A DNA stretch of 43,106 nucleotides from a virus. The notes under the pieces were generated by a model. The model worked only from the letters and a program-made list of their open reading frames with translations. It was not told the DNA's origin and did not search any database. Positions 27,800-39,506 of the stretch are shown piece by piece; the first letter of the stretch is position 1, and every line of letters begins with the position of its first letter. The position numbers and the translations under genes were made by a program. Location of the stretch: the IMG/VR virus record IMGVR_UViG_3300046675_000249, positions 1 to 43,106 of that record; one strand, given 5' to 3'.

Positions 27800-27947
27800 G
27801 GGAGGCGCAACTCCCGGATTCCGGGGGTTGGGGTGTCTTCCCAGGGTGCCTCCCTCGCCTCCCTGACTCGCCATCTCCGCAGGTCATGTGCAGGGAGGCG
27901 GTAGGGGAGGCGGTGAGGGAGAACTCCCTCAGTCTTCGGCGCCTCCC
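27800..27947. repeat. GGGAGGC repeat cluster, candidate transfer locus
   Basis: Six copies of GGGAGGC in 148 bp. Three are on the + strand (27800, 27893, 27905), the last two with 12-bp period. Three are inverted (27848, 27857, 27941), two with 9-bp period. The cluster begins in the gap between the HTH gene and the TraB-like gene and reaches into the last codons of the latter. Only one or none would be expected by chance. In Streptomyces plasmids, TraB binds short repeats in a clt locus that often lies next to its gene. Confidence 0.5.
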
Positions 27948-30055
27948 TCGTCGTCGATGTCGTCCTCGCGGGCCGCGATCGCGTCGAGGATCCGGTCCAG
28001 GCTGACGTGCATCTTCCCGCCGTTCGTCTTGTACTCGCCGTGCCCGGCCTCGTCGAGAACGCCCTTGAGGTCCCGGAAGGACCAGCTGCCGTAGACGAGC
28101 GGGTTGCGGTCCTGGAGGCCGTGCAGAACGTCCTGCGTCCGCATCCGCGGCTCGTGGCCGAGGACGACCGCGATGTCGGCGAGCGGGTCGGGCACCTCGA
28201 ACGCGGGTGCGTCGGCCGGCCGGGTGCCGTCGTACAGGGCCATGGCTCGCTCGACGACCGGCGTCACCTCGTCGATGCCCTTCTCCGGGTCCCGTTCGAC
28301 GTAGTGGGCACGGATGATCTCGAACGGCTTGCTGGTGAACCCGTAGGTCACCGCCGTGCCGACGTCCTGCCCGGGGACCAACTCGGTCGCCCTGATCCCT
28401 GCCTTGTACTTGCCCGAGCCGAGCAGGCCGTCGTTCGCGACCTGGTCGCCGACCGCGAACGCCACGCGGTGGGAGGTGTTGCGGGTGACGTCCCGCGGGA
28501 TGCTGTCGGCGGTCGGGGAGACGGTGACCCAGATCAGGGTGATGCCGACCTTGCGGGCCTTCTTCATCACGCGGATGGCCAGCTCAGCGGCCTCTTTGCC
28601 GTACTCCTTGCTCATGAACAGTTCGTGGCACTCGTCGAAGACGACGACCTTGGGCCGCATCCGCGCGTCCCGGGAGGCCAGTTCACGGGTGAGCTTGGTC
28701 GACTCGCCGCCGAGTTCTTCGAGCAGCTTGCCCCGGGTGGTCACCTCGTTGGCCAGACCGCGGAGCGCATCGAGGCCGGCGCGCAGGTCTTCGGGGTCGT
28801 CGCCCTTGACCAGGGTTCGCAGGCGCGGCCGGAGCGGGTCGTAGTCGACGTTCGTCGCCATCACGTAGACCTCGGCGATGACGAGCGGGTCGAGGATCGC
28901 GCCGAGCAGCAGGGAGACGACGATGGACGTCTTGCCGGACCCCATGATCCCGCCGACGATCCAGTTCTTTCCCATGAGCTGGCCGATGATCTCGTCACCG
29001 CGCTGGGACACGGCGACCGGCACGCCCTTGAAGTAGTCGGTCGTGCCCTCGTGCAGCAGCGGCCAGTCCGGTACGACGCCGTTCAAAGAGCCCTGGTCGG
29101 CGACCCAAAGGTCGAGAACGCCAGGCATGTTGGGCGGCTCGGTCGGCCACACCTCGACGGGCTTACGCATCAGGTTGTGCGCGAGGACGTTCTTCTTCGC
29201 GTTGACCATCTCGACGGTGACGCCCATCGGCAGCTGCAGCTGCGTGTGATAGCCGTTGCCGAGCCTGGTCGTGGGCGACACCCAACGGGGCTGCCACCCT
29301 TCCTTGATAGCGGCGTTGAGCTGCGGAATCGACAGCTTGCCCAGAGCGCGCAGGATGGCGTTCTCGTCGGGCAGTACGCCCATGTCGCCTGCTTCGACGG
29401 GCAGGGCCCAGGTGGGCGCCGTCTTCTGGCCCTTGCCGACCGCCCAGGCGCCGGCCACGGCGAGCAGCGGCAGCGAGTACAGCAGCGGCTCCCACACGAT
29501 CCCGGCGATGAACGCCACCCAGCCGACGAACTCGACGACGGCGTTCGTCGGGGCGAGGACATCGCGCATGTCGTGGTTGTAGGCGGCCAGCATGATGCCG
29601 ACCATCAGCAGCAGTCCGCCCGTGCCGACGGCCGCCGAGGCGATGGCCTTCGGCAGGTTGAGAACCATCTGCAGGAGCTCCATACGGCGGCGATGCCGGG
29701 CGAACCGGAAGGCGTAGGCCCGCTGCTCCCACTTCTGCACCATCTCCTCGTTGCCGGACGCTTCGGCGATCCGCATCATCCGGTGATGCATCGCCGCGGT
29801 GCGGGCCTCCCAGGTACGCCGGGCGAGTACGCGGCTGCCGCCGACGACGAACGCGCCGTGCCGGACCGTGAACCGGTACGTGGGACTCTGGCGGGTGTCG
29901 ATGAACACGCGGCGCAGGGAGTCGATACGGATACGGCGCCGCGGCCGTACTCCGGGCTCGGGTGCGGGTGTACTCGGTGTACCTGCCTTGTCGAGTACGA
30001 CGGGTACGGGCGTACCTGCCGCCTCAGCATTGGCGGGTACGTGAAGATCCGTCAT
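27929..30055 (-). CDS. traB: TraB-like FtsK/SpoIIIE DNA translocase
   Basis: 708 aa. Two transmembrane helices near 132-160 and 170-205. A RecA-type motor carries Walker A GGIMGSGKTS (Lys375) and Walker B VVVFDE (Asp474/Glu475). The last ~70 residues (MRTQDVLHGLQDR, SWSFRDLKGVLDEAG, MHVSLDRILDAI) look like a winged-helix DNA-recognition module. This is the layout of actinomycete TraB/TraSA proteins, which move double-stranded DNA between hyphae in conjugation without a relaxase. Linked Spd-like genes support transfer rather than chromosome segregation. The 5' coding region is rich in GTAC and rare codons (GTA, ACA). ATG behind GGAGAG. Confidence 0.85.
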   Translation of the reverse strand: MTDLHVPANAEAAGTPVPVVLDKAGTPSTPAPEPGVRPRRRIRIDSLRRVFIDTRQSPTYRFTVRHGAFVVGGSRVLARRTWEARTAAMHHRMMRIAEASGNEEMVQKWEQRAYAFRFARHRRRMELLQMVLNLPKAIASAAVGTGGLLLMVGIMLAAYNHDMRDVLAPTNAVVEFVGWVAFIAGIVWEPLLYSLPLLAVAGAWAVGKGQKTAPTWALPVEAGDMGVLPDENAILRALGKLSIPQLNAAIKEGWQPRWVSPTTRLGNGYHTQLQLPMGVTVEMVNAKKNVLAHNLMRKPVEVWPTEPPNMPGVLDLWVADQGSLNGVVPDWPLLHEGTTDYFKGVPVAVSQRGDEIIGQLMGKNWIVGGIMGSGKTSIVVSLLLGAILDPLVIAEVYVMATNVDYDPLRPRLRTLVKGDDPEDLRAGLDALRGLANEVTTRGKLLEELGGESTKLTRELASRDARMRPKVVVFDECHELFMSKEYGKEAAELAIRVMKKARKVGITLIWVTVSPTADSIPRDVTRNTSHRVAFAVGDQVANDGLLGSGKYKAGIRATELVPGQDVGTAVTYGFTSKPFEIIRAHYVERDPEKGIDEVTPVVERAMALYDGTRPADAPAFEVPDPLADIAVVLGHEPRMRTQDVLHGLQDRNPLVYGSWSFRDLKGVLDEAGHGEYKTNGGKMHVSLDRILDAIAAREDDIDDEGGAED

Positions 30056-34462: not shown

Positions 34463-36070
34463 CTACGCGGCGGGGACGAGCAGGGAGTCGAGGACCGACG
34501 TCACGTGCTCGGTGTCGATCAGGTCGGCGATCTCGCCAGCGGTGGCCTGCCGGGGGACGGTGATCCCGCGGCGGCGGCAGAGACCGAGCTGCTTCGGGCT
34601 GGGCTTGCCCGAGCGCCAGCGGGCCCCGCGGTCGACGAAGGCGCCGGGGGCGACCTTCGTGGCCTGCTGCTCCAGCCAGGCCAGAGCCTCGCCGAGGGGG
34701 CGGGCCGCATCGTCGTGTGGCGGGTGCACTCCGTGGACGTCAGTCCAGCGGCGCATCCGGTAGAGGCGTGAGCCCGGGTCCCGGACGAGGAAGAGCACCA
34801 TCGAGTTCGAGACGCGGATGAACCACGTACCGGCGGGCGTCCGGAGCCACCTGATGGACGAGCCGCCGAAGAGGTTGATCTCCTCGGCCGTGATCTGCGC
34901 GGCCAACGTCCGGCGCTTCTCCGTGGCGGCGTGCTCCTCGGCGACCTGCCGCAGGCTCTTGCCCTCCTCGGCCTGGCCGACCTCCCGCTCGGTGAGGTCG
35001 ACCATCGAGGCCAGCTTGTGGCGGGACGCCGCGCCCATGACGTCGAGCAGCAGGGCATCCGTTTTGCCGGGCGCCGGGCGGAGACCGCGGCCGACCATCT
35101 GCACGTACAGGCCGGGGCTCTTGGTCGGGCGGGCGACGACGATGCACGACGTGTGCGGCGCGTCGAACCCCTCGGTCAAGACCATGCAGTTGGTGAGCAC
35201 CTGCACGTCGCCGGCCGCGTACCGGGCGAGGGTGGCGCGGCGCTCGTCACGGCCCATGTCGCCCCACACCGGGGCCGCGCTGATACCGACCGCCGTCAGG
35301 GCCGCGGCGGCGGCCTGAGCGGTCGCCACGGTCGGTGTGAAGACGACGCCCGCTCGGTCGCTGGCGTGGTCGACGTACGCCTTGGCGATGGCGTCCAGCG
35401 CACCGCTGTCCTCCAGCGCCTTGCCGAGCTGGCCGTCGACCAGGTCGCCGCCGCGGGTCTTCACCTTGTTGAGGTCGAGGGTGTCGACCGTGATGGACTT
35501 GCCGCGGACGTCGCAGAGGTAGCCGTCGCTGATCATGTCGAGGATGTCGAGGCGGAAGACCACGTCTTCCCACACCTCGGCGAGTCCGCCGTCGGTGCGC
35601 GTCATGGTCGCGGTGAACCCGGCGACCGGTACTCCGTCCCAGGCGCCGAAGTGCCTGAGGACGTCCATGTAGCCGCGAGCCGCCGCGTGGTGGCACTCGT
35701 CGACGATGATCAGGCCGATGTCGCGGATGGCCTCGCGGCGCCGCGGTACGGCCAGGGTCTGGACGCTGGCCACGATCACGTCGGCGTCCTGGTGGTCGTC
35801 GCGCTTCGCCTTGACGATGCCGACCCTCAGCATCGGGTCGACGGCAAGCAGCTTGGAAGCGGCCTGCTCGATCAGCTCCTCCCGGTGGGCGATGACGAGG
35901 ACTCGTCGTCCGCCGAGGGCGTCGAGCATCTGGTGTGCCAGGTGGGAGAACACGACGGTCTTGCCGGCGCCGGTGGGCAGCACGACGGCCAACCGGTTCT
36001 GGCCGTCGGCCCATCCCTTGCGCAGGGCCTCGATGGCGTCGAGCTGATACGGGCGGGGGGTGAAGGACAT
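34463..36070 (-). CDS. SF2 DEAD/DEAH-type helicase
   Basis: 535 aa; ATG five bases after GAGGTG. Motifs in order: Q-like PYQLDAIEAL, Walker A PTGAGKT (Lys37), DECH box at 124-127, TAT at 153-155, helicase C with TEGFDAP near 299-304, and arginine finger QMVGRGLRP (324-332). The C-terminal ~150 residues are specific to this subgroup. It resembles phage and mobile-element helicases of the SSL2/RecG-like SF2 class that remodel replication forks or recombination intermediates. Its partner is probably the Prim-Pol protein encoded across the iteron gap. Confidence 0.9.
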   Translation of the reverse strand: MSFTPRPYQLDAIEALRKGWADGQNRLAVVLPTGAGKTVVFSHLAHQMLDALGGRRVLVIAHREELIEQAASKLLAVDPMLRVGIVKAKRDDHQDADVIVASVQTLAVPRRREAIRDIGLIIVDECHHAAARGYMDVLRHFGAWDGVPVAGFTATMTRTDGGLAEVWEDVVFRLDILDMISDGYLCDVRGKSITVDTLDLNKVKTRGGDLVDGQLGKALEDSGALDAIAKAYVDHASDRAGVVFTPTVATAQAAAAALTAVGISAAPVWGDMGRDERRATLARYAAGDVQVLTNCMVLTEGFDAPHTSCIVVARPTKSPGLYVQMVGRGLRPAPGKTDALLLDVMGAASRHKLASMVDLTEREVGQAEEGKSLRQVAEEHAATEKRRTLAAQITAEEINLFGGSSIRWLRTPAGTWFIRVSNSMVLFLVRDPGSRLYRMRRWTDVHGVHPPHDDAARPLGEALAWLEQQATKVAPGAFVDRGARWRSGKPSPKQLGLCRRRGITVPRQATAGEIADLIDTEHVTSVLDSLLVPAA

Positions 36071-36105: not shown

Positions 36106-36383
36106 GGTACGCGCTGCGTACCGGCTGCGTACCGGCTGCGTACCGGGGCAAAAGCAGGGTTGACCTGCTGTTATGTCTCTCTAGAGAGCTAGTGGTACGC
36201 AGGTACGCAGAAACACACAGGGGTCTATGTGTGCGCGCTCGCACGCACGCACCCGCACACACGCACACGCCTGAGGGGTGCCATTTCCGGGCGACTGCGT
36301 ACCGCCCCGAAAGCGGCATCCGGAATGCCTCTGACCTGCGGAGACTCGGGCGGCGGGGTGGTACGCACTCAGTGCGTACCACC
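36106..36383. repeat. GTACGC iteron cluster, candidate replication origin
   Basis: The 326-bp gap (36071-36396) between helicase and Prim-Pol genes holds nine copies of (T)GCGTACC or its complement. Three perfect tandem 11-mers CTGCGTACCGG run from 36114 to 36146, about one helix turn each. The others are an inverted GGTACGC at 36106, two tandem GGTACGCA at 36194-36209, one at 36295, and two inside the palindrome at 36357-36383. An AT-richer spot with CTCTCTAGAGAG (36177-36188) and an alternating purine-pyrimidine tract (36228-36270) lie in the middle. This is the architecture of an iteron origin or a multi-site operator. Confidence 0.7.
36357..36383. repeat. 27-bp perfect palindrome
   Basis: Arms GGTGGTACGCACT and AGTGCGTACCACC pair perfectly over 13 bp around a single central C, 13 bp from the stop codon of the Prim-Pol gene. 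It contains two copies of the iteron core back to back. The single-base centre makes it a protein-binding dyad rather than a terminator. Confidence 0.85.
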
Positions 36384-36396
36384 ACCGTGGCGGCCG

Positions 36397-39279
36397 TCAT
36401 GCCGCCTCGTCCTCGTCGCCGAAGCTGAGGCCCTTGGGCGTGAAGGCGAGGCACTTCGCGCGGACGCCGTCGAAGCGTCGCGGCACGAGGTGCGCCGGCC
36501 GCTGGCTCTTCAAGGTCTTCAGGTACTCGGCGTCGACCCAGCTACCGACCACGGCATCGAGGGAGTAGTCGGCATCGGCGAGGATCTTGCGGACCCGCTC
36601 AGGCAGGAGCGCGACCTCGGTGACACCCTCCTTGGTGGACAGGACGCCGAGCCAACCGGAGTACGGCGGCTTCTCGTTCATGGCCGCGCGAGTGGCGCTG
36701 AACAGCTCGTGCGCGTGGCCTGCCACGTACTCCCGTAGGACGTCGAGCGCCATGTCGGGCCGGTTGTCGGTGGGGTTGTGCGCGGTGAACAGGCCCCGCC
36801 ACACGTCGTGCGTGAGCGGCTCGTACGGCAGCAGGCCGGTACGGCAGGCGAGCGTCTCGGCGAGGACCAGGGCAGCGACCATAGGCGCGCGCCGGTTGGT
36901 CATGTCCCCGTTGCCGCGGAACTCGTCGACCAGCGTGCGGTGGTGCTCCCTGAGCTTCTCCCTGCCGTTCGGCTTGGCGAGGCCGCTGAGGATGTACCGG
37001 ATGAACTCCGGTCCCGCGTGCCCGTGGTTGGCGAGGACGCCCTCACGGGCGGCTGCCGCCGTCGGGCCGCCTCCGTCACCGAACGGGGCGATGGTCGTAC
37101 CGAGGATGCGAGCCGCCGCGCCCTGGCTGGTGGTGAAGCTGAGCGCGGGCCGCTCGCCGGACGACAGGAGGATGGTCTCCCAGGGCAGCATGTTGCCGAA
37201 CGCCCCGCCCGACCTGGCCTTGCCGTGGTTCATCGGGAGTTGGTAGAGCACCTCGTCGATGAGCGTGTCGTCGGTGACGGCCATCGTCTCGTCGAAGACC
37301 GTGAGCAGGCCTCGGACGAGGTTCAGCCGCTTCTCGATCGCGTACAGCGTGGTGCGCCAGTTGGACATGGCGGAGGCGTGCTCGGACGGGTCGGCCCACA
37401 CGCTGAGCGCGACCTGAAGTGCGGTCGTCTTGCCCTTGGTGGAACGGCTGGAGATGTCGAGGGTGAAGCTGTTGAGACCGAGCGGCTTGAGCAGCGGCGC
37501 GGCGAGCGCCGCGGCGACGGCGACGCGCGGCACCGGGAAGCCGGCCAGCGGGGCAACGGTCGCCTGCCAGTCCTCCAGCGTCCCCTTCCTGGTGTGCGCT
37601 CGGGCCGGGCCGCGCTGCTCCTCGAACGCCGTGTCGACCTTGATGCCGTCCTCGGGGGAGCTGACGAACGTGCCGTCGTCCTGCCAGCCGAGCCAGCGGG
37701 CCAGCTGCTCGGACGGGATGCGGTGGACGTTCTCCGCCTCGAACTCGGCGAGCCACTTCTCGACGGCCCGAGCGTCGCCCTCGACCGCGGGGAGTCCGGC
37801 CGAGCCGAGGGTCTCGATCAGCTTCCGCCCGCGCTTGGCCGTCTCGCGGCTGACGATGCGGGAGATGCGGCGCGGCCGGCCAAGGCTGCGGTCGATCCAG
37901 GACAGCTCTACGTACTGGTCGCCCTCGGGGTCCTCGAAGGTGGCCGTCACGACCAGCGGGGCGAAGGTGACGCGGGTCCAGCTCTCGCCGCTCTGGCTGA
38001 GCACTTCGACGCCCCGGCCGGTGAGCCGGTAGTCGTACGGCGTGCGGACCGTGGCCGGGAGGCCGAACGTGTCCGCGTAGTCGAAGCCTTCCGAGTCACG
38101 CGTGGTGTCGCCCTGGGGGGCCTGCTCCTCGTCGGCCCTGGCGTGCTCGTCCTCGTCGGGCGCCGCGGCAGGGGCAGGGGCCGCCAGCGCGGGTGCCGGT
38201 GCCGGGCCGAGGGCGCGAGCGGCGGTGGGTGCGCCGACGGTGGCCAGGTGCCGGCTGCCGTAGCCCAGGCGGGCCAGCTCTCGGGCGGCGGCCTTGTGGT
38301 CGCTGCCGTGGTTGAGCAGGGCGTAGGCGCCGAACTTGCTGTAGGGCACCTCGCTCTGGAACTCGGAGCCGGTGGCGAAGACGAACAGGCGGTCGTGTTC
38401 GTCCTTGCCGGTCGTCGCCTTCACACCACCGACGCCGTCAGCCCATCCCCAGTAGGTCTCGCTGCCTCGGGTGTGCATCGGCCGGAAGACGCCACGGAGG
38501 ATGTCCTCCCAGGACCCGCGGGCCTCGAAGTCGTCGCCCGGCCGCAGGCTTCCGTCCGGCCGGGGCTGCGCGGGGCGTGGGGCGGTCTTCGCGGCCTCGG
38601 GCTGGGGGAGTGCGTCCACCATCCGGCACGCGGTCCGGATCGCGTCCATGGTCTCGGCGTCGAGGACAGGGATCGTGCCCGGCCCACCAGCCAGCCGGAC
38701 GTACGGCCGACCGGAGGCGTGGACCGGACCGTCGGACGGCTCGACCAAGCCGTACCCACCCTCGCCGCGCGTCTCGATCAGGACGCGGACGATGCGCGCA
38801 TTCGGCTTCTCCCGGAGCCTCTGCTTCTCGTCCTCGGTGTGCTCGTCCTCGCGGGCGAGTCGAGAGGCCAGCTTCGTGTTGCCGGGCACGGCGCCCTCGA
38901 CGCGGACGCGGTAGTGCCGGCCGCCGGACGGCGACTCGGTGACCCAGCCGTCGAGGATCGCGGTCCACGGCTCGCCGAGCCCGGAGCCCTGCATGATCTC
39001 GGTGACGTCGTCGAGCAGACCCTCGCGGATGGCGAGGCCCTCGAACTCGATCAGCTCGACGCCGCCGGACACCTGGCCGTAGACGACGGCGATACCGCGG
39101 GGCCTGTCCCCGCCGAACCATCCGTCGTGCTGCTCAGGCGTGGTCCGGGTCACCTTGTATTCGAGCCAGGACACGGCGGGCTTCTTGGTGCCGTCGGCCT
39201 TGATGGGCAGGACGCACAGGCCGGCGTCGTGCAGCTCGCGTGCTGCCGTCCGGAGGTCTGGAGTCTGTGAGTCGGTCAA
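36397..39279 (-). CDS. Prim-Pol / DUF927 replication protein
   Basis: 960 aa from a TTG start that overlaps the upstream stop as TTGA and follows GGGAGAG. The N-terminal bifunctional primase-polymerase domain (about 5-210) shows GLCVLPIKADGTKKPAVSW, the acidic motif GGVELIEFEG (Glu75/78/80 in place of the usual Asp residues) and the SPSGGRHYRVR motif. A Pro/Ala linker (about 345-390) leads to a DUF927-like helicase domain with Walker A SSRSTKGKTT (Lys617) and Walker B TVFDET (Asp663/Glu664). Prim-Pol is one of the known replication types of AICEs and also occurs in phages. It would prime and unwind at the adjacent iterons. Confidence 0.88.
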   Translation of the reverse strand: MTDSQTPDLRTAARELHDAGLCVLPIKADGTKKPAVSWLEYKVTRTTPEQHDGWFGGDRPRGIAVVYGQVSGGVELIEFEGLAIREGLLDDVTEIMQGSGLGEPWTAILDGWVTESPSGGRHYRVRVEGAVPGNTKLASRLAREDEHTEDEKQRLREKPNARIVRVLIETRGEGGYGLVEPSDGPVHASGRPYVRLAGGPGTIPVLDAETMDAIRTACRMVDALPQPEAAKTAPRPAQPRPDGSLRPGDDFEARGSWEDILRGVFRPMHTRGSETYWGWADGVGGVKATTGKDEHDRLFVFATGSEFQSEVPYSKFGAYALLNHGSDHKAAARELARLGYGSRHLATVGAPTAARALGPAPAPALAAPAPAAAPDEDEHARADEEQAPQGDTTRDSEGFDYADTFGLPATVRTPYDYRLTGRGVEVLSQSGESWTRVTFAPLVVTATFEDPEGDQYVELSWIDRSLGRPRRISRIVSRETAKRGRKLIETLGSAGLPAVEGDARAVEKWLAEFEAENVHRIPSEQLARWLGWQDDGTFVSSPEDGIKVDTAFEEQRGPARAHTRKGTLEDWQATVAPLAGFPVPRVAVAAALAAPLLKPLGLNSFTLDISSRSTKGKTTALQVALSVWADPSEHASAMSNWRTTLYAIEKRLNLVRGLLTVFDETMAVTDDTLIDEVLYQLPMNHGKARSGGAFGNMLPWETILLSSGERPALSFTTSQGAAARILGTTIAPFGDGGGPTAAAAREGVLANHGHAGPEFIRYILSGLAKPNGREKLREHHRTLVDEFRGNGDMTNRRAPMVAALVLAETLACRTGLLPYEPLTHDVWRGLFTAHNPTDNRPDMALDVLREYVAGHAHELFSATRAAMNEKPPYSGWLGVLSTKEGVTEVALLPERVRKILADADYSLDAVVGSWVDAEYLKTLKSQRPAHLVPRRFDGVRAKCLAFTPKGLSFGDEDEAA

Positions 39280-39506
39280 GGCTGCTCTCCCTGGTGGAAC
39301 CGGGCGAGGTGCTCGGCCCTGACGGTCTTGGTCCATTCCGGGATGGCGGCCCCGTAGACGGGGCCTTCGCGGCGCTGAGGGCAGCCGGGGCGGTGGCAGT
39401 CGTAGCGAGCTCTGCCGTTGTCGGCATCAATGACCAGCAGGCCAGCTACCTGAGGTGCGGCCGTGCCGCCCGGGGTGTCCCGGGCGGCCACGGCGGAGCT
39501 GGTCAA
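39276..39506 (-). CDS. 76-aa zinc-finger-like protein
   Basis: C-terminal half reads YDCHRPGCPQRREGPVYGA and VRAEHLARFHQ, a C-x4-C-xn-H-x4-H pattern. TTG start in a TTGA overlap with the gene upstream, and TTGA again with the Prim-Pol gene, so three genes are chained by four-base overlaps with rare starts. Probably a small DNA-binding accessory of replication. Confidence 0.7.
   Translation of the reverse strand: MTSSAVAARDTPGGTAAPQVAGLLVIDADNGRARYDCHRPGCPQRREGPVYGAAIPEWTKTVRAEHLARFHQGEQP

Follow-up and report, generated by a model that had tools for sequence, protein, structure and literature searches.

A dense array of short repeats directly behind a replication gene raises two questions, namely what the array does and which protein reads it. 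Such an array is found in the DNA analysed here (referred to below as the window, 43,106 nt in its whole length), which comes from a viral source record of 43 kb. It occupies a 325-bp gap between the stop codon of a primase-helicase gene (36397) and the ATG of a RadD-like helicase gene (36070), and this placement between the Prim-Pol gene and a helicase agrees with what had been noted in an earlier, sequence-only reading of the same DNA. The nine GTACGC sites, the three exact contiguous CTGCGTACCGG units and the perfect 13+1+13 dyad described in that reading were likewise all recovered at their places.

The repeat array and the element that carries it

The features of the locus are as follows.

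34463..36070 (-): RadD-like superfamily 2 helicase, accessory (RadD E 1.5e-50, below the family cut-off)
36106..36112 (+): inverted iteron GGTACGC, which closes the triple; kept in nearly all relatives
36114..36146 (+): three exact contiguous CTGCGTACCGG iterons with an 11-bp period; kept in relatives
36150..36230: candidate unwinding element; in a nearest-neighbour profile, the 80 bp of lowest stability anywhere in the window
36161..36167 (-): box 2, CAGGTCA, +229 to +244 from the initiator stop, position conserved in the family
36194..36210 (-): tandem iteron pair, GGTACGCAG twice with one base shared, 8-bp spacing; kept in relatives
36226..36271: alternating purine-pyrimidine tract with two interruptions, read from the sequence
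36295..36303 (+): single iteron CTGCGTACC, core invariant in 19 relatives
36332..36338 (-): box 1, CAGGTCA, +58 from the initiator stop, position conserved in the family
36357..36383: palindrome of two inverted iterons (GTACGC at 36361-36366(+) and 36374-36379(-))
36397..39336 (-): initiator candidate, 979 aa, Prim-Pol (residues 34-215) fused to a DUF927/Cch-type helicase (DUF927 at 452-709), by Pfam
36439..36651 (-): predicted C-terminal winged helix, about residues 896-966, the proposed iteron reader
GTACGC sites: 36107(+), 36116(-), 36127(-), 36138(-), 36195(+), 36203(+), 36297(-), 36361(+), 36374(-)

The nine GTACGC sites fall within 273 bp, where about 0.2 would be expected from the remaining 33 sites of the window (Poisson ~1e-12, far beyond chance). 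Those 33 are about twice the ~17 expected from dinucleotide shuffles of the 43,106-nt window. The conserved repeat unit is closer to the 9-mer CTGCGTACC/GGTACGCAG than to GTACGC. The least stable 80 bp includes the tandem iteron pair, the triple adjoins it just outside, and in each of the 21 relatives scanned the least stable 40 bp occupies the corresponding position. In both 36133-36167 and 36292-36338, the order is a box, then a GCTTT-type stretch, then an iteron, so that the locus looks like two direct box-spacer-iteron copies with differing spacer lengths. The gap measures 326-346 bp in relatives. That these lengths are not all divisible by three, and that the helicase start GAGGTG...ATG is conserved, supports reading it as non-coding.

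The palindrome (arms 36357-36369 and 36371-36383) had been thought a possible initiator dyad. It is instead an inverted pair of iterons, and since the dyad takes the form ~12+3+12 with a free centre in most relatives, its perfection in the window appears to be incidental. It folds strongly as RNA (z -4.3), but it was rejected as a terminator: there is no T-run behind it, the scan made no such call, and it is made of iterons. A structured RNA was also rejected, with no Rfam match and no tRNA.

The record encodes a tape measure protein, a portal protein, a head protease and a large terminase, and relatives of the element are located in Streptomyces genomes. Judged by these genes, the element is a tailed-phage (siphophage) prophage of Streptomyces. 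Its former assignment to the actinomycete integrative conjugative elements (AICEs) is ruled out by the phage structural and packaging genes. An FtsK/SpoIIIE-like protein, encoded at 27929-30055(-) in the window and also present in the plasmid pFP4, may have prompted the AICE label.

In all close relatives examined (L003-L024, 79-93% protein identity, some of them copies of a single element) the array recurs with its order unchanged, running from the inverted pair through a box, the single site, the alternating tract, the tandem pair, the low-stability stretch and the second box to the triple and the inverted site. Mutations affect a few individual sites (L021, L022). In an alignment of 19 sequences, 52 of the 54 site columns show no variation, compared with 84 of the 259 other columns. 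Repeats not conserved in related elements had been named beforehand as an outcome that would count against an origin, and conservation is what the relatives display. In L019 the array is intact although the downstream gene no longer encodes a RadD helicase; nor is a RadD-like helicase directly downstream of the array in L109, L111 and L113. On this comparative footing, the RadD helicase is dispensable to the array.

Arrays behind DUF927 helicases in distant relatives and plasmids

Loci with a helicase ~55-67% identical to that of the window (L099-L101, L108-L110) carry the iterons GGTTACGCA, CGTTACGCA or TGTAACGCA in a similar layout, and those at 27-44% identity (L111, L113, L114 and L115) carry GGGGTACGCAG, GGGACCC and GTTCCAA. 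For L115, no relatives were found among viral contigs. In L099-L101 and L108 the primase half looks CHC2/Toprim-like instead of Prim-Pol, and a weak Pfam match (E 0.0016) points to a zinc ribbon in L133, which is identical to L099 as a record. Across the tested loci, the primase module is Prim-Pol, Toprim/zinc ribbon, or none that is recognised. Because the array survives replacement of the RadD helicase (L019) and of the primase domain (L099-L101, L108), it travels with the DUF927/Cch-type helicase. Compared with the window, L099-L101 and L108 resemble a natural primase swap, with a similar helicase and origin layout.

In a survey of such arrays, 63 loci were grouped into 33 families at 60% identity and one member was scored per family. 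Within the 600 bp that follow the helicase stop codon, an array was called when a 7-mer recurred more often than in at least 99 of 100 dinucleotide shuffles. An iteron array follows the stop directly in 23 of 32 DUF927 families, as compared with control values of 1/33 for the end of the ORF, 3/33 for its interior, 3/32 for the region upstream and 2/28 for a region at +1200 bp. By the same shuffle test over 600 bp, 9 of the 32 families are without an array. The iteron sequences differ from family to family, and many resemble (T)GGNNAC, a likeness that suggests one recognition scaffold with changing detail.

The same arrangement is present in plasmids. All eight DUF927-helicase plasmids examined (pFP4 and those of S. 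virginiae, Geobacillus, Deinococcus, Enterobacter, Methylobacterium, Legionella fallonii and Eubacterium) have 5-16 repeat copies directly behind the helicase gene, and since persisting plasmids must replicate, these arrays are the strongest indirect evidence for origin function. The sole annotated replication genes of pFP4, a plasmid-phage of Streptomyces, encode Prim-Pol and the DUF927 helicase, and among the three annotated genes of the Deinococcus plasmid the DUF927 gene alone looks replicative. Two cases are weaker: the Enterobacter record was deposited as linear and lists a Rop-like protein, and the Eubacterium array was reached by 2 of 200 shuffles.

pFP4 is similar to the window in several respects. 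Its DUF927 helicase is 42% identical over 573 aa; behind the helicase gene lie 12 copies of AGTTACC together with two boxes and an alternating tract, and its phage genes include one for a portal protein 39% identical to that of the window. It differs in having another iteron and a separate Prim-Pol without significant similarity to that of the window. A replication locus of pFP4 may already have been described in its paper.

The candidate initiator, its predicted DNA-reading domain and the probable function of the array

DUF927 was identified in the initiator candidate by Pfam (PF06048, E 1e-35), and a profile of the helicase half matched SaPI Rep (8tch, E 7e-17) and SCC Cch (5dgk, E 5e-13) in the PDB. 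The structure model covers the 563-aa helicase part (pLDDT 86), and a fold search with this model placed SaPIbov1 Rep and SCCmec Cch at the top, far above all others. By Pfam, PDB profile and fold, the initiator thus has DUF927 and an MCM-like helicase core.

One of the closest matches in design is SaPIbov1, a staphylococcal pathogenicity island replicon, with a DUF927 helicase initiator that corresponds in sequence and fold. As in SaPIbov1-Rep/Cch replicons, the iterons of the window lie directly downstream of the helicase stop codon, and an easily melted stretch (36150-36230) is found within the iteron region. SaPI origins also have an easily melted stretch in the iteron region. Unlike SaPIbov1, the window has its primase fused to the helicase, the host is GC-rich and the element is a complete siphophage; in addition, the actinobacterial branch has paired CAGGTCA boxes and the alternating purine-pyrimidine tract. 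As for the SCCmec elements, Cch (pattern 1) is a DUF927 helicase with the same fold as the window initiator, whereas Cch2 (pattern 2) belongs to a different helicase family. The reported origin is that of Cch2, and none was reported for Cch elements in the literature searched.

Other types of replicon fit less well. No Rep_3 initiator, the mark of the classical iteron plasmid, was matched in the ten neighbouring proteins scanned, and D5_N and primase_Cterm, which would indicate the P4-alpha/SaPI5-Rep type, are absent from the window initiator by Pfam. A likeness by description is found in the Streptomyces theta plasmid pWTY27, which combines a primase/polymerase, RepA (522 aa) and an iteron region. 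Its 300-bp iteron region (GTGGGAAC repeats) is needed for replication, which is bidirectional, and is bound by RepA in vitro, RepB being the predicted primase/polymerase (PMC3583192).

SaPI Rep reads iterons directly downstream of its own gene with its C-terminal domain, and Cch2 binds repeats directly downstream of its own operon in the same manner (PMC7581432). The C-terminus of the window initiator is predicted to be a winged helix from its strand-strand-helix-helix-strand-strand order in the model (E481-486, E489-494, H496-505, H510-519, E534-539 and E542-549 in the 563-aa part, pLDDT ~80-90). HTH_56 is matched weakly in the window protein, below the curated cut-off, and more strongly in relatives. 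By analogy with SaPI Rep and Cch2, the iterons are most likely read by this C-terminal winged helix of the DUF927/Cch helicase half and not by Prim-Pol. In a Mantel test, iteron similarity correlates with both C-terminal (0.45) and core (0.43) distance, with partial values of 0.20 and 0.14; this supports co-variation of iteron and protein, at a level that does not separate the C-terminus from the whole helicase.

The sequence-only reading had favoured Prim-Pol as the binder, or one of the neighbouring small zinc proteins. An origin with the Prim-Pol domain as its iteron reader, or with a small zinc/HTH protein encoded nearby in that role, would be in keeping with the presence of Prim-Pol in the same polypeptide as the helicase, and with small genes upstream in the same operon. 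We nevertheless consider it improbable, and favour the helicase C-terminus, because helicase-adjacent arrays are kept in relatives with a zinc-ribbon/Toprim-type primase or no recognised primase. The C-terminal binding of SaPI Rep and Cch2 also speaks against it, as does the array of pFP4 and of the S. virginiae plasmid, which is still behind the DUF927 gene where Prim-Pol is a separate gene.

Taking the evidence as a whole, we hold it to be very probable that a temperate Streptomyces siphophage has its replication origin in the 325-bp gap, and that this origin is bound by the C-terminal winged helix of the phage's initiator helicase. Other phages and plasmids, when compared, lend strong support to an origin beside the replication genes, as had been proposed from the letters of the window. 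The initiator would be encoded immediately upstream, as a fusion of Prim-Pol with a self-loading helicase of the DUF927/Cch type, and its winged helix would bind the nine GGTACGCAG iterons. By the example of SaPI Rep and Cch, helicase rings would assemble on the iterons, melt 36150-36230 and load; the fused Prim-Pol would then make the first primers before the host polymerase takes over. Counting against an origin, GC skew has no switch at the array.

As an alternative to an origin, the array could be a multi-site operator or promoter of the downstream operon, for example in autoregulation. Iteron arrays can also regulate, and this one is directly upstream of the helicase gene in the direction of transcription. 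Such a role is highly unlikely, since the array is behind the DUF927 gene whatever comes next (L019, L109, L111, L113), in plasmids too, and holds the lowest duplex stability of the window, and no sigma-70-like promoter was found in it by a scan for that one promoter type. A role in integration, as an arm-site or attachment region of the integrase, or in partition can practically be dismissed. The same tandem pair as in the array, GGTACGCAGNNGGTACGCAG, does occur in unrelated prophages, both within the 3' end of a tyrosine integrase gene and next to a tRNA-like att core. The array, however, lies over 5 kb away from the integrase gene and remains within the prophage after integration, the L004 host chromosome has the tandem pair at this array only, relatives with quite different iterons still have an array behind the helicase gene, and no match to the ParA/ParB families was found among the neighbouring proteins scanned.

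GGTACGCAGNNGGTACGCAG was seen near tyrosine-integrase gene ends and tRNA-like att cores in L027, L031, L033, L038, L039, L041 and L043. The integrase was read directly in L031, and the tRNA-like 3' end at the arm-site loci was read by eye, with no tRNA detected there by ARAGORN. Because the pair is also found at integrase ends of unrelated prophages, the motif alone does not mark an origin.

If the array is the origin, a candidate-origin rule follows for DUF927-helicase phages and plasmids, which is to look right behind the helicase stop codon, and the same rule hints at where an origin may lie in SCC elements with the DUF927 helicase Cch. The locus would further provide a compact candidate Streptomyces replicon of ~3.3 kb, and its relatives a naturally occurring set of paired helicases and iterons whose comparison might show how DNA specificity is set.

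Paired boxes and the alternating tract

The paired CAGGTCA-type boxes of the actinobacterial branch and the alternating purine-pyrimidine tract are new features described here. Two same-strand C[AT]G[GCT]TCA boxes, ~100-185 bp apart, are present in 33 of the 36 related origins scanned, against a background of 0.43 per 400 bp in the preceding ORFs; as these loci share descent, the 33 box-bearing origins are not independent events. The exceptions are L230 and L231, where the boxes (two and one, respectively) are on the opposite strand, and L115, which has none. As the iterons change from GGTACGC to GGTTACGC, AGTTACC, GGGACCC and GGGGAAC, the boxes are kept; they are rare in other DUF927 branches.

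The paired boxes raise the question of a second origin signal. We hypothesize that they are such a signal, more conserved than the iterons, and correspond to binding sites for a host factor or a conserved part of the initiator, or to primer start sites. A more specific and tentative proposal, which we think may be correct but is rather doubtful, is that the actinobacterial origins carry two codes, changing iterons for their own helicase and a conserved same-strand CAGGTCA pair for a conserved host replication factor or for primer starts. If true, the boxes would be an undescribed host-read origin signal common to phages and plasmids. As for the alternating tract, the longest alternating purine-pyrimidine run exceeds that of 99% of shuffles in 27 of the 36 related origins.
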